From contig NZ_RYFF01000010.1 in the NCBI RefSeq assembly GCF_004138165.1, positions 1-64,000 of the forward strand: a stretch of DNA of 64,000 nt. The letters run 5' to 3'. A program made the position numbers and the translations under genes. The notes under the pieces are model-generated. The model was not told the DNA's origin, searched no databases, and was given only the letters and a program-made list of their open reading frames with translations. Below, piece after piece: positions 38,151 to 44,544 of this stretch. Each line of letters starts with the position of its first letter. The stretch's first letter is position 1. Source of the DNA: Candidatus Chloroploca sp. Khr17 (lineage in GTDB: Bacteria; Chloroflexota; Chloroflexia; Chloroflexales; Chloroflexaceae).

Positions 38151-38906
38151 ATGCGCGATCGTGTCTATCGAACCGAAGGCCTGATCTTACGGCGAAACGA
38201 TTTCGGCGAAGCCGATCGCATCGTCTTGCTTGCCACGCCCGCCGGAAAGCGCCGCGTGGTCGCCCGCGGGGTGCGCAAAACGACGAGTAAACTTGCCGGA
38301 CATATTGAACTCTTCACCCACACTAGTCTGATGCTCGCCCTTGGGCGCAATCTTGATATTATGACCCAGAGTCAGACCATCAGCCCCCATACCAAGCTTC
38401 GTACAAGCCTCGCTCGCCTCGGTTGTGCCTATTATGCCGCTGAACTCTATGATCGTTTTACAGAAGAACAAGATGAGAACCCCGCCCTCTTTGCGGCCCT
38501 GATCGAAACCTTTGGCCTGCTCGATCGTAGTGCTTCCCCAGATCTTGTGCTACGGGCCTACGAACTTCACCTTATGCAACTGCTCGGCTATCGCCCACAG
38601 TTGCACCAGTGTGTGGTCTGTGAGTCTCAGTTGACCCCCGTAGCTGACCGTTTTAGCCCTGAATTGGGTGGCGTTCTCTGCCCCCTCCATCGTGACGCCG
38701 ACCGGATGGCCCTGCTGATGGCTGAACCGGTCTTTCGCTTGATGCGGTATCTTCAGAGCCATCCGCTTGGTGCCGTTGAGTCGCTGCTCCTTTCGCCAGA
38801 ACTCCGCCGTGATGTTGAACGCCTGCTCCGTGCGTATGTGCGCCAGTTGCTTGAACGCGATCTCAAGTCCGTCGCTTTTCTTGACGAGAGCCTGCGCGTC
38901 GAATAG
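38151..38906 (+). CDS. recO: DNA repair protein RecO
   Basis: Loads RecA with RecR at single-strand gaps. 251 residues: an OB-fold N-terminus (YRTEGLILRRNDFGEADRIVLLATPAGKRRVVARGVRKTTSKL), a helical middle, and a zinc-ribbon-like set of cysteines (QCVVCESQL ... GVLCPLHR). First gene of a short plus-strand operon with the PH protein and the phosphorylase. Confidence 0.93.
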   Translation: MRDRVYRTEGLILRRNDFGEADRIVLLATPAGKRRVVARGVRKTTSKLAGHIELFTHTSLMLALGRNLDIMTQSQTISPHTKLRTSLARLGCAYYAAELYDRFTEEQDENPALFAALIETFGLLDRSASPDLVLRAYELHLMQLLGYRPQLHQCVVCESQLTPVADRFSPELGGVLCPLHRDADRMALLMAEPVFRLMRYLQSHPLGAVESLLLSPELRRDVERLLRAYVRQLLERDLKSVAFLDESLRVE

Positions 38907-38916
38907 GAGTGAGGTC

Positions 38917-39594
38917 ATGAATTACGTCGATAGCCTCCTCAGCCGTGGCGAACAAATCGTCTACGTTGCCCGTCAACATATCTTTGTCTTGATCAGCAAT
39001 ATCTTGGCCGAACTCTCGATGATAGCGTTGCTGGTCGCCGCAGGCGTTGCGTCCCATGTTGCGTTTGATACCTCTCAGCCGGTGATGAGCGATCTGACGG
39101 CGAGTTCACTTATTTTGCTTATTAGCATTACGATGAGCCTGGTGGTGCTCGTTAGTGGCTTTATCGATTATCTGCGCTGGACGACCGAACAGTATGTTGT
39201 GACCGACCGACGCGTTATTCAGGTGCAGGGGGTGTTGAATAAGCGCGTCACCGATTCGTCGCTCGAGAAGATCAATGATGTCGAGTTGCGCCAGAGCATT
39301 TTCGGGCGCATGATGAATTTTGGCACGGTGGCGATCTTGACGGCTTCAGGCAGTGAGGGCCTCAGCGTTATGGATCGTATCGCCGATCCCCTCGCGTTCA
39401 AACGGGCGATGATGGACGCGAAACATAATCTTGAACGTGGGTATGGTTTCCTCGAACAAGCCTATATCCATTCGTCAGGAGCAGCAGGCGACATCCAACG
39501 TACCATCGAAGATCTCGCCGACCTCCGCGACCGGGGTATCCTTTCAAGTGATGAGTTTGAAGCCAAGAAGCAGGAATTGCTGCGGAGAATTTAG
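38917..39594 (+). CDS. Membrane PH-domain protein with SHOCT tail
   Basis: 225 residues from ATG 38917, ten bases after recO. Two membrane helices (IFVLISNILAELSMIALLVAAGVASHV; LILLISITMSLVVLVSGFIDYL) precede a bacterial PH (bPH2, YdbT-like) domain: YVVTDRRVIQVQGVLNKRVTDSSLEKINDVELRQSIFGRMMNFGTVAILTASG. The last 30 residues, DLADLRDRGILSSDEFEAKKQELLRRI, are a SHOCT motif. Function unknown. Confidence 0.85.
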   Translation: MNYVDSLLSRGEQIVYVARQHIFVLISNILAELSMIALLVAAGVASHVAFDTSQPVMSDLTASSLILLISITMSLVVLVSGFIDYLRWTTEQYVVTDRRVIQVQGVLNKRVTDSSLEKINDVELRQSIFGRMMNFGTVAILTASGSEGLSVMDRIADPLAFKRAMMDAKHNLERGYGFLEQAYIHSSGAAGDIQRTIEDLADLRDRGILSSDEFEAKKQELLRRI

Positions 39595-40443: not shown

Positions 40444-43383
40444 ATGCCTCTATCGTTGACTTCGCTCGATCAGTTGACGCTCCTTGATGCTTCCCTGCGG
40501 GCGAAGCTTGAACCCTATTGGATTACCAGTGTTGAAGAACTGGTCACAACTGCGCGTGCGAGCAATCAACGCTACGGGAGTGGCCTCGTTGCCCTCGCGC
40601 TCGCCCTTGGCATCGGTGAGGCGACCCTTCGCCCTCTGATCGAGGCCGCTCTGCCTCTGATGCCTCCCGGACTCTCTTTTGATGTCCCTGTGCAACAAGA
40701 GTACGGCGCTGGCCTTGTCCTTCCCGATGATGATGACGATTTCGATGCTGTCTCGTTTTCTGTCCCGACAAATCTTCCCTCCGTAGTTCTTCCGCTCTTC
40801 GCCCTCCCTCCCCCCGTCGATCAGGGCGTTCGCAATACCTGTGTCGCCTTCGCTCTCAATGCCGCCCTCCAGGTGCTCAGTCAGGATCCGACCGCGCTCT
40901 CGGCTCAGTTTCTCTACTGGGCCGCTAAAGCTGCCGATGGCCTCCCCGGTGACGTTGGTACCGATCCCTTCAAGGCGGCCCTTATCCTCCAGTCCACCGG
41001 TGTCTGCCGTGAGCTTACCTGGCCCTATCAACCCGCTCCCCGTGATGACCAGAATCCCGGCCACGGCCCGCCCCCCCCCGAGGCCCACGCCGAAGCGCCT
41101 CAACGTCGCGTCAGGCTCTTCCATAAGTTGCCCCGAACGAGCGTTGTGCAGCTCAAAACGGCCCTCGCTGCCGGTCAACCAGTGCTGATCGGTTTGACGA
41201 TCTGGGAGCATTGGAGCGATTCATGGCAGGGGAGTCGCCTCGGGCGGCTGCGCCTCGCGTTGCCCGGTGAGGCACGGCGTAGCGGCCACGCGCTCTGTGC
41301 CCTTGGTTATCGCGATGATCCGCAGGCCCCCGGTGGTGGCTATTTCATTGTCCGTAATTCCTGGGGCGACTCCTGGGCCGTTGAAAATAGCGATGGTCCT
41401 GGCTATTGCCACGTGCCCTATCGCCTCATTGCCGAAACCGGCCTCGCCTCCGTCGCCCTCGAAGGTGCTTTCATCCAGGCCCCTCCCCTCCCCACACCAG
41501 AAGCAGCGCCAACCTCTGCAACTACACCGCTTCACCAGGGTGGCGCCTCCCCCGGCACTGTTTCCGGCGAACTTGCCGCTCTCTATGCCGAAGCTACTGA
41601 TCTTAAAGCGCGCCTCGATGCTTTTGTTGTCCGCCTCGGTAGCCTTCTCCACGCCGAGGCCTCCGCTGGTTCACCTCAGCAGCCTGATCCTTCAACGAGG
41701 CGCACGTCAGATCCTGTAGGCGCAAGCTCTGGCGAGCAAAGCCCGGACTCTGCCGTCGGCATGCCGCTGCTCCTTCTCACGCCGTCCGAGGCACCAGACT
41801 CCGAAGAGCTCTACCCCAACGGGCTTTCGCCTGATGGCCGGCCTCTGCTGCGGCTCAGCACGGCAGTGGCTGCCGATCTTGCGCGCAATAAAATGGCTGC
41901 TGATCCCAGGCCACTCGCTGATTTGCACCGAACAAAACTTGATGCTGAAGCACAGCACCTCGGTACCGTGATTGATGTTGATATCCATAGCCTCCCCCAG
42001 GCGCACTGGGCCGTGGTGATCAATGCCAATGAAGATGCTGCCCTGCTCAAGGCGATTTGGCCCCTCATCGCGCATCGGATGCGCCAGATGGGCCATGCGC
42101 CGCCGTCGGTCGATTTCAGAGCGGGCGAAACTGCGGCAGCCTGGCTCCTCCGGCATACCGACAATGGCCGTCAGAACCTCAAAGAGGCCTGGGGCCAGCT
42201 TCCACCGGTGCTCATCTATCGCCACGATGATACCGTACGTACCTGGCTGAATCGCTATGGCGTCGCGCCTGGCCCCGTCGATCCAGGCCGTGGGGTGCCC
42301 TTCTATCTGCTGCTCCTTGGACTTCCAGGGCCTCGTCAGGCCAATGATACGGCCTTCATTCCCTTTCTCTTCCAGTATCAACTCGATATCTTTTGGGGCG
42401 TTGGTCGTCTCTGTTTCACCGATGCCAACGGTCTGCATCGCCTCGCTGACTATACCACCTACGCTGAACGCCTCGTTGCCTTTGAGCAGCGCCAGGACGC
42501 CGCTACGCTCCTCCGCAAAGAGGCGCTCTATGTCGCGACTCGCCATCCGCTTGATCCTGCCACCATCCGCAGCGCCGATGAGTTGATCCAGCCCCTTGCC
42601 CGCTGGAGTAGCGATCCAACGCGTACGCCCCTCACATTTGGTTTTGCGCACCGCCTTATCGTCGGTGAGCAGGCGACTCGTGCGCAATTCGAGGCGCTTT
42701 TGCGCGGCAACGGCGATGGCAAGGCCCCGGCTATTCTCTTCACTGCGACCCACGGCCTCGGCCTGCCGGCCAGCGACGATCGCCTTGTCGCTTCTCAGGG
42801 TGCCCTTGTTTGGCAAGACTGGGATGGCGTTGGCAATGTGAAGCGCGAGCACTGGTTTGCCGGCGAGGATCTTGCTGCGCTTGGCGCTGATGCGCACCTC
42901 GAAGGCACGATGGCGCTGCTCTTCGCCTGTTATGGCCTGGGCTGTCCGGCCTACGATGAGTTTATTTTTGATGCTCAGCGTCGTCGCCCCCGTATTGCGC
43001 CCTTCCCCATCCTCGCGCAGTTGCCCCAGCAACTTCTACGCAACGGCGCTCTCGGTGTGCTCGGCCACGTTGAACGCGCCTGGACTTTCTCTTTCACCGG
43101 CATTGAGGGGGCACGTGCTCAGTCGCAGGCCTTTGAAGATCTGCTTGGTCGCCTCATGCGCGGCTGGAGGGTCGGCCACGCGACTGATCAGTTCAATGTC
43201 AATCAGGCCGAACGTGCCTCCGCGCTCGTCCAGGAACTCGAAAACACCGAGTTTATCATCGCCAATGGAGGTGCCCCTGATAACCGGCTGATTGCTAGGC
43301 TCTGGATGGCGCGCAACGATGCGCGCAACTATCTCTTCCTTGGCGATCCCGCCGCTCGCCTTCCCTTCGCCGAAGAAAGTTGA
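40444..43383 (+). CDS. Two-headed cysteine-peptidase-like protein (papain-like plus clan CD-like)
   Basis: 979 residues, no signal peptide. Residues 1-70 are helical and may be an adaptor. Residues ~110-345 are a papain-family (C1) domain with a full catalytic set: Gln127 and Cys133 in PVDQGVRNTCVAFAL, His282 in RSGHALCALGY, Asn305 in FIVRNSWGDSW. A low-complexity linker (350-450) follows. Residues ~500-979 form a second large domain with a His-Gly and Ala-Cys pair (His770 in LFTATHGLGL, Cys829 in LLFACYGLGCPAYDEF), like the dyad of clan CD peptidases (gingipain, CHAT, caspase-like). The first assignment is firm, the second tentative. Substrates unknown. Confidence 0.8.
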   Translation: MPLSLTSLDQLTLLDASLRAKLEPYWITSVEELVTTARASNQRYGSGLVALALALGIGEATLRPLIEAALPLMPPGLSFDVPVQQEYGAGLVLPDDDDDFDAVSFSVPTNLPSVVLPLFALPPPVDQGVRNTCVAFALNAALQVLSQDPTALSAQFLYWAAKAADGLPGDVGTDPFKAALILQSTGVCRELTWPYQPAPRDDQNPGHGPPPPEAHAEAPQRRVRLFHKLPRTSVVQLKTALAAGQPVLIGLTIWEHWSDSWQGSRLGRLRLALPGEARRSGHALCALGYRDDPQAPGGGYFIVRNSWGDSWAVENSDGPGYCHVPYRLIAETGLASVALEGAFIQAPPLPTPEAAPTSATTPLHQGGASPGTVSGELAALYAEATDLKARLDAFVVRLGSLLHAEASAGSPQQPDPSTRRTSDPVGASSGEQSPDSAVGMPLLLLTPSEAPDSEELYPNGLSPDGRPLLRLSTAVAADLARNKMAADPRPLADLHRTKLDAEAQHLGTVIDVDIHSLPQAHWAVVINANEDAALLKAIWPLIAHRMRQMGHAPPSVDFRAGETAAAWLLRHTDNGRQNLKEAWGQLPPVLIYRHDDTVRTWLNRYGVAPGPVDPGRGVPFYLLLLGLPGPRQANDTAFIPFLFQYQLDIFWGVGRLCFTDANGLHRLADYTTYAERLVAFEQRQDAATLLRKEALYVATRHPLDPATIRSADELIQPLARWSSDPTRTPLTFGFAHRLIVGEQATRAQFEALLRGNGDGKAPAILFTATHGLGLPASDDRLVASQGALVWQDWDGVGNVKREHWFAGEDLAALGADAHLEGTMALLFACYGLGCPAYDEFIFDAQRRRPRIAPFPILAQLPQQLLRNGALGVLGHVERAWTFSFTGIEGARAQSQAFEDLLGRLMRGWRVGHATDQFNVNQAERASALVQELENTEFIIANGGAPDNRLIARLWMARNDARNYLFLGDPAARLPFAEES

Positions 43384-43386
43384 GTT

Positions 43387-44544
43387 ATGTCATCGCTTGC
43401 CGAACAATTGACTGCCTGGCTCACTGCTCGCTCTACGACCTATCTTGAAGAGCTTCGCCAACTCTGTGCCTTTGAGTGTTTGACTGACCACAAACCTGGG
43501 GTTGACCAGGCTGGCAACTGGGTGCGTCAGTGGGCGATGCAGCGCGCCTGGTCAATCGATACGTACCCCGATCCCGAGGTTGGTGATGGCCTTGTGGTCA
43601 GTTGCCCTGGTACCGGCCAGGGGCGCGTGATGCTCGTCGCCCACCTTGATACCGTCTATCCTGTCGGCACCGCAGCCGAACGCCCCCTTCGCATCGAAGG
43701 TGACAAGTTGATCGGCCCTGGCACCGCCGACAATAAAAGCGGCCTGCTCTCGGGACTCTATGCTATCGAAGCCCTCGCTACCCTTGCCCCCGCATCCTTT
43801 GGCTTGCTCAGCCTTGTCTGCGGTGGCGACGAAGAGACGAGTGCACGTGCGTCGGGCGCGATGCTTGCCAGCCTTGCGCCGCACTACGATCTTGCCCTCG
43901 TGCTCGAAGCAGGTCGCGAAAATGGTGATATCGTCAGTGCCCGCAAAGGCGGTGGTCTCTTCACGGTCACGGTTACAGGCCGCGCTGCTCACGCCGGTGT
44001 CGAGCCCGAAAAGGGGGCCAATGCCATCCTCGCCCTCGCCCATCACATTCTTGCCCTCCAGGCGATGAATGGAATGTATCCGGGCTTGACCGTCAATGTC
44101 GGGGTGATCACCGGTGGCAGTGTGCCCAATACCGTACCTGCCCTGGCCGAGGCTCAAGTTGATCTGCGCATCACCCATCCCGACCACACTGCCCCCGTTG
44201 AAGCGGCGCTGCAAGCGCTGGTACAACGCGATCTAGTCCAGGGTACCCGTACCACCCTCGCTGGCGGATGGGGCTTTGCCCCGATGGCTCGTACACCTGC
44301 GATTGCCAGGCTTGCTGAGCTTACCCGTAGCTGTGCCGATGAGCTTGGTTTTGCCCTTACCGACGCCGCCACGGGCGGCATCAGTTACGCCAATCTCCTC
44401 GCAGGCGCAGGCCTACCAGTGCTCGATGGCCTTGGCCCTGTCGGCGGAATGGATCACAGCCCCGACGAATACATTGACCTCTCAAGCATCATACCGCGCA
44501 CCGCCCTGCTCGCGCTCCTTATTGCCCGTTCGAGTGAGCAGTAG
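43387..44544 (+). CDS. M20-family metallopeptidase (glutamate carboxypeptidase/ArgE-like)
   Basis: 385 residues. Two-zinc site: His in MLVAHLDTVYPVG, Asp in GPGTADNKSGLLSG, catalytic Glu-Glu in VCGGDEETSARASG, later Glu in VLEAGRENGD and His near the end in GGMDHSPDEYI. The dimerisation domain has TGRAAHAGVEPEKGANAI. It starts three bases after the two-headed protease stop, so the two may be co-expressed. Exact substrate (amino-acid conjugate or short peptide) unknown. Confidence 0.9.
   Translation: MSSLAEQLTAWLTARSTTYLEELRQLCAFECLTDHKPGVDQAGNWVRQWAMQRAWSIDTYPDPEVGDGLVVSCPGTGQGRVMLVAHLDTVYPVGTAAERPLRIEGDKLIGPGTADNKSGLLSGLYAIEALATLAPASFGLLSLVCGGDEETSARASGAMLASLAPHYDLALVLEAGRENGDIVSARKGGGLFTVTVTGRAAHAGVEPEKGANAILALAHHILALQAMNGMYPGLTVNVGVITGGSVPNTVPALAEAQVDLRITHPDHTAPVEAALQALVQRDLVQGTRTTLAGGWGFAPMARTPAIARLAELTRSCADELGFALTDAATGGISYANLLAGAGLPVLDGLGPVGGMDHSPDEYIDLSSIIPRTALLALLIARSSEQ

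Follow-up and report, generated by a model that had tools for sequence, protein, structure and literature searches.

A signal-less protein with predicted papain-type and C25-like cysteine-peptidase sites, nearly fixed in one Chloroflexales family

Cysteine peptidases of the papain type (C1A) have a bacterial short form, represented by the solved structure 3ois, while the gingipain-type peptidases of family C25 belong to clan CD. Gingipains are typically secreted and carry a signal peptide, which is not strictly a defining feature. A further domain with a clan CD arrangement of His and Cys is CHAT, one kind of which is the TPR-CHAT/Csx29 type. Kaur et al. 2020 (PMC7159879) describe an α/β-hydrolase as the constant neighbor of caspase-superfamily domains in VMAP systems, a pairing that occurs in NTP-dependent conflict systems; the words C25 and gingipain are absent from its text. 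A search of the full-text literature retrieved no description of a protein that joins a C1A domain to a C25-like one and so bears out, within the literature searched, the claim of an earlier sequence-only reading that the pairing lacked a published description; most subscription journals fell outside its scope, and absence is thus unproven.

The window studied here is a 64,000-nucleotide stretch of the genome of Candidatus Chloroploca sp. Khr17, and all features described for it lie on the + strand. The gene at 40444-43383, an open reading frame placed as in the sequence-only reading, encodes a protein of 979 residues, also encoded by two named relatives at 94% identity. From the residue patterns and family matches given below, we hold it highly probable that this one signal-less protein combines two intact and unrelated cysteine-peptidase sites. 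We propose that it is a cytoplasmic, two-headed cysteine peptidase that serves as a regulated effector, a proposal that, taken as a whole, we judge evenly balanced between right and wrong.

The protein starts with a helical region (residues 1-85, 40444-40698), which has no Pfam match, conserves L5, L8, L22, W26, E31, E32, G47, L51, and L55, and precedes the papain domain also in a protein devoid of C25 (L054). Compared with solved structures, this region gave five matches, none convincing (best E 0.065); it may resemble a helix-hairpin-helix. The papain (C1A) domain follows at approximately residues 87-345 (40702-41478), and a Pro/Ser/Thr-rich linker (residues 346-458, 41479-41817) joins it to a C25-like peptidase region at residues 459-979 (41818-43380), assigned from PF01364 matches in relatives and from profile alignment. 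The latter apparently has the same extent as a C25 catalytic domain and bears at residues 967-970 (43342-43353) the GDPA motif common to C25 C-termini. No hydrophobic stretch was found near the N-terminus, where the best Kyte-Doolittle 19-mer mean is 0.52 (1.69 for the whole protein), in agreement with the earlier view that a signal peptide is missing. Pfam found no TPR repeats in the 979-residue protein, and a scan for promoters and terminators returned a number of sites not above expectation.

The papain domain is recognized by Pfam Peptidase_C1 (PF00112) at residues 132-312, with 34.1 bits against a gathering score of 20.7. Its closest solved structure is 3ois_A (E 8.4e-18, residues 87-335), and the alignment pairs the DQG..C, GHA, and RNSWG motifs of the two. 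The predicted site consists of the oxyanion-hole Gln127 (40822-40824), the nucleophile Cys133 (40840-40842), His282 (41287-41289), and Asn305 of the NSWG motif (41356-41358). These four residues, together with His770 and Cys829 of the second site, are invariant in 23/23 full-length homologues. Phage records yielded two matches, both confined to residues 126-336 and hence to the papain part, and the viral contigs searched yielded none.

The second site is predicted to comprise His770 of a THG motif (42751-42753) and Cys829 of an FAC motif (42928-42930). The alignment had 43 rows, of which 20 lack the papain part or are partial and one is a gap in each site column, with L003 and L004 omitted as apparent duplicates of L033 and L032; each residue is kept in 41 of the 42 rows that remain. 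Thus, the proposed pair does not vary among homologues, save in L048, where His770 is replaced by Q and Cys829 by S. Loss of both residues together is the pattern expected of a catalytic dyad. L048 itself, a C25-like protein, is encoded (L048:6071-6916) in the vicinity of genes for a NACHT-FGE and a TPR protein. Both residues were present in all 44 C-terminal halves of a set assembled later; neither that set nor the set of 34 used below contains L048 or the partial rows L046, L047, and L021 (1-1392). A further histidine, H875, is equally conserved (44/44 C-terminal halves), so that conservation alone cannot single out the catalytic His, and the profile alignment places H770, not H875, on the C25 histidine. 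As patterns of residues, the two predicted sites are far beyond chance.

As to family, the sequence-only reading had likened the His-Cys spacing of the second half to that of clan CD enzymes such as gingipain, CHAT, or caspase-like proteases. The 979-residue protein itself matches Pfam Peptidase_C25 with 15.2-17.6 bits, below the gathering score of 23. Among the C-terminal halves of 34 relatives, 27 match C25 (E<=0.1, lowest 1.4e-9), three match CHAT weakly, and we dropped CHAT as the identity of this half on these counts. Several relatives that align with it exceed the C25 gathering score (L037, 33.9; L050, 29.8; L049, 26.8; L042, 23.1 bits), as do L098 (38.9), L099 (30.0), and L097 (25.5 bits), and the plasmid relatives, with 32-37% identity, carry the annotation C25 family cysteine peptidase. 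For direct comparison we used 29 C25 domains taken from Chloroflexota. A first profile comparison, with fewer rows, aligned 44 columns at a probability of 17.9, with the active site outside. The local profile-profile comparison with 38 sequences aligned 159 columns (probability 62.9, E 7.1e-5) and set SHG opposite the C25 GHG and FAC opposite the C25 Cys; wider alignment modes covered 325 columns and ended at the common GDPA motif. An hmmsearch with a model of the 29 domains gave no significant match to the 34 C-terminal halves, the best scoring 6.5 bits, while 170 shuffled sequences reached up to 4.1 bits. A profile search of solved structures with the C-terminal half returned one match at chance level (E 0.71), which is no peptidase. 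We read this half as a divergent C25-like domain of the gingipain/caspase superfamily, either a member of C25 or a sister group, so that the clan CD assignment stands in its C25 form and falls in its CHAT form.

Fold prediction of this half gave models of very low confidence. AlphaFold reached a mean pLDDT of 34.9 for the C-terminal half with four rows and of 41.0 for residues 728-979 with five rows. In the latter model, His770 and Cys829 lie at the ends of strands 38-43 and 96-102, an observation of little weight at a pLDDT of 41.0. A Foldseek search with the same low-confidence model returned 138 matches, none at E<=0.001; MALT1 entries occur among the best 50 of these and were not counted as evidence.

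Selection acts on both parts. Across the window sequence, L032, and L033, three Candidatus Chloroploca-type sequences, the papain part has a dN/dS of 0.06-0.15 and the C-terminal half one of 0.07-0.09, and the linker is the quickest-evolving part at 0.22-0.30. Both halves are under purifying selection, which together with the six invariant residues upholds the claim of two distinct, conserved cysteine-peptidase sites. Matches were present in 51 of 400 Chloroflexota genomes sampled. Within the window's own Chloroflexales family the whole double protein occurs in 21/23 sampled genomes, one of the other two having a C25-like half only and the other neither half; among the 400, no genome outside this family has the whole protein. 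A second sample of 150 genomes of the class contained the N-terminal half in 31, all within the same family (38 members listed). The double architecture is thus nearly fixed in one Chloroflexales family.

The gene in the window lies in a conserved neighborhood. This begins with a putative recO-like gene at 38151-38906, which is followed by one encoding a bPH_2/SHOCT protein (38917-39594, ATG at 38917; Pfam and synteny) and by a purine nucleoside phosphorylase-type gene (PNP; PF01048, 39595-40428) 15 bases upstream of the peptidase gene. Among 11 syntenic loci, all three were called directly upstream in seven (L055, L056, L057, L058, L061, L062, and L065), and a partial set was called in four (L059, L060, L063, and L066). 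These counts are lower bounds, since long antisense ORFs mask some genes of L058, L059, and L066; the dual gene is among those masked at L058 and L059, where it was placed from a genome match search. At L062:2136-8360, three tandem papain-less C25-like copies follow straight after the dual-protease gene. PADLOC assigned the 979-residue protein to no family at E<=1. Neither a STAND NTPase (by family matches of the neighbors and the ORF list) nor an α/β-hydrolase was recognized among the immediate neighbors of the window gene. This copy looks like a fixed chromosomal gene in ordinary-looking surroundings, and its near-fixation in the family, together with the recO-bPH2/SHOCT-PNP neighborhood, argues against a mobile defense gene at this locus.

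Such surroundings suggest a routine role, as does the presence of the protein in nearly all genomes of the family, and the alternative to be weighed before others is housekeeping: an unregulated or mildly regulated peptidase of intracellular degradation, salvaging protein together with the PNP and, where adjacent, the M20 peptidase. In the window, an M20 peptidase gene (43387-44544) does begin 3 bases downstream of the peptidase gene, and the sequence-only reading had suggested that this enzyme could finish the degradation. However, among the 11 syntenic loci examined, M20 adjoins the dual gene only at L061 and L066, which reduces the neighbor to a weak clue; we dropped the partnership on that ground. 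Moreover, the PNP is absent at L130, and synteny with recO carries no functional link. We consider a housekeeping role somewhat unlikely, also in view of the gene company of a second clade.

This second clade (support 1.0) unites L002, which is encoded in the window's own genome, with L035 and L129, all three with the same dual architecture. The paralogue L002 belongs to a row of genes on one strand (L064, G000:C20, 2-11231), in which it lies 3' of genes for CHAT-SIR2, nSTAND1-WD40, and DruE-like DEAD helicase proteins; the helicase matches PADLOC DruE models. We regard this row as a candidate defense cluster; for L002 itself PADLOC gave no family at E<=1e-5. L129 lies next to two NACHT-FGE-sulfatase proteins, and CHAT-like ORFs and a HEPN-TPR protein lie upstream of L035. 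STAND, NACHT, and CHAT surroundings of this kind speak against simple housekeeping. They also provide, in this clade, the homologues of the same architecture near defense-like genes that the sequence-only reading had proposed to look for; the window copy has no defense-like neighborhood.

Papain-less relatives keep comparable company. In Ca. Viridilinea (L034), an nSTAND1-WD40 protein and a C25-like protein precede a 937-residue protein (L034:5786-8599) in which an α/β-hydrolase-like region, recognized via motifs and BLAST rather than Pfam, is fused to a second C25-like domain. Upstream of the Sinorhizobium and Nostoc plasmid relatives lie proteins of 438-442 residues, mutually 45-46% identical, one with a sub-threshold match to Abhydrolase_8. 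By similarity, an α/β-hydrolase partner accompanies L097, L098, and L052, and CHAT genes are found near all three plasmid relatives. The role in defense or programmed death suggested earlier consequently finds some footing in the second clade and in these relatives, but not in the recO-bPH2-PNP setting of the window copy.

Other arrangements of the two halves were seen as well. In one 845-residue ORF (L050:6646-9183), a C25-like domain is combined with a carbon-nitrogen hydrolase of the nitrilase type. In a draft genome (G452), the papain and C25-like halves are two overlapping ORFs (L125:2537-5472) that meet at a run of ten A, and a split gene, slippage, or an assembly error are possible. L037-L045 (e.g., L039:6856-10506) make up a further C25-like family, whose members carry a C-terminal extension and lie beside conserved small genes of no known family (clusters cl2 and cl6). 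Trypco2, considered as the identity of the extension and of a small neighbor, was discarded for want of a Pfam match.

A second alternative is that the two peptidases work independently and share a chain for co-production, the linker having no regulatory role. The halves do occur alone, as C25-only proteins (L034, L053, L036, and L062) or as a helical-papain protein (L054), the linker is quick to evolve, and L125 has the halves apart. However, the run of ten A at the L125 junction makes a frameshift or assembly error possible there, and the fusion has been retained in both dual clades; we find co-production rather improbable. It is very improbable that just one half works as a peptidase and that its partner, in the window clade most probably the C25-like half, is a conserved module for binding or scaffolding, a state reported for many effector-position caspases of conflict systems. 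Although L048 lacks both residues and, according to Kaur et al. 2020 (PMC7159879), some 70% of the effector-position caspase domains of one system are inactive, invariance of both residue sets in all 23 dual proteins and low dN/dS in both halves are unexpected of a dead site.

Returning to the regulated effector, we hold this role tentatively, at somewhat less than an even chance, because it is the gene company of the relatives, not the window locus, that points to it. Both sites would cut. The protein may have the C25-like half as its ancestral core, to which the papain half was added as a partner that could trim or activate the C25-like half through the flexible linker or else broaden the range of bonds cut; the helical region of about 85 residues might be an adaptor or a pro-region. 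The enzyme would be kept inactive in the cell until stress or infection switched it on. In the second clade it would act like an effector adjoining NTPase sensors, and in the window clade it may have been turned into a fixed gene of the family. A bolder form of the proposal, which we rate as doubtful, is a two-stage cascade on one chain: the STAND/NACHT sensors of the second clade would trigger one peptidase, a cut in the linker or in the partner would free the other, and the cell would be dismantled, the window clade being a domesticated, chromosomally fixed version. Were the cascade true, initiator and executioner caspases would have a counterpart within one protein, built from two unrelated protease folds.

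Although the halves belong to known kinds of peptidase, one protein with two unrelated cysteine-peptidase sites, kept across a family, is unusual, and it offers a model in which the single control of two proteases can be tested. With the C1A short form (3ois) the protein shares the Gln, Cys, His, and Asn set and the extent of the domain, but here a region unmatched in Pfam precedes that domain, a predicted second peptidase follows it, and a signal peptide is missing. With C25 it shares collinear motifs, the aligned His-Gly and Cys, and the terminal GDPA; it differs in scoring below the Pfam gathering threshold, in having no signal peptide, and in a His-to-Cys spacing of 59 residues compared with 34 in the C25 member L067. 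The likeness to CHAT lies in the clan CD arrangement of His and Cys, whereas it is C25 that is matched and TPR repeats are missing. The nearest published pattern, as given in Kaur et al. 2020 (PMC7159879), is the caspase/α/β-hydrolase pairing. The window copy differs from those systems in having no hydrolase, STAND, or CHAT partner beside the gene. Relatives of its C-terminal half, in contrast, adjoin or are fused to α/β-hydrolase-like genes near STAND and CHAT genes, and it is by these partners that the likeness was judged. If our reading of the second half is right, the range of C25-like peptidases widens beyond secreted virulence enzymes and takes in proteins lacking a signal peptide, with relatives near STAND, NACHT, and CHAT genes.
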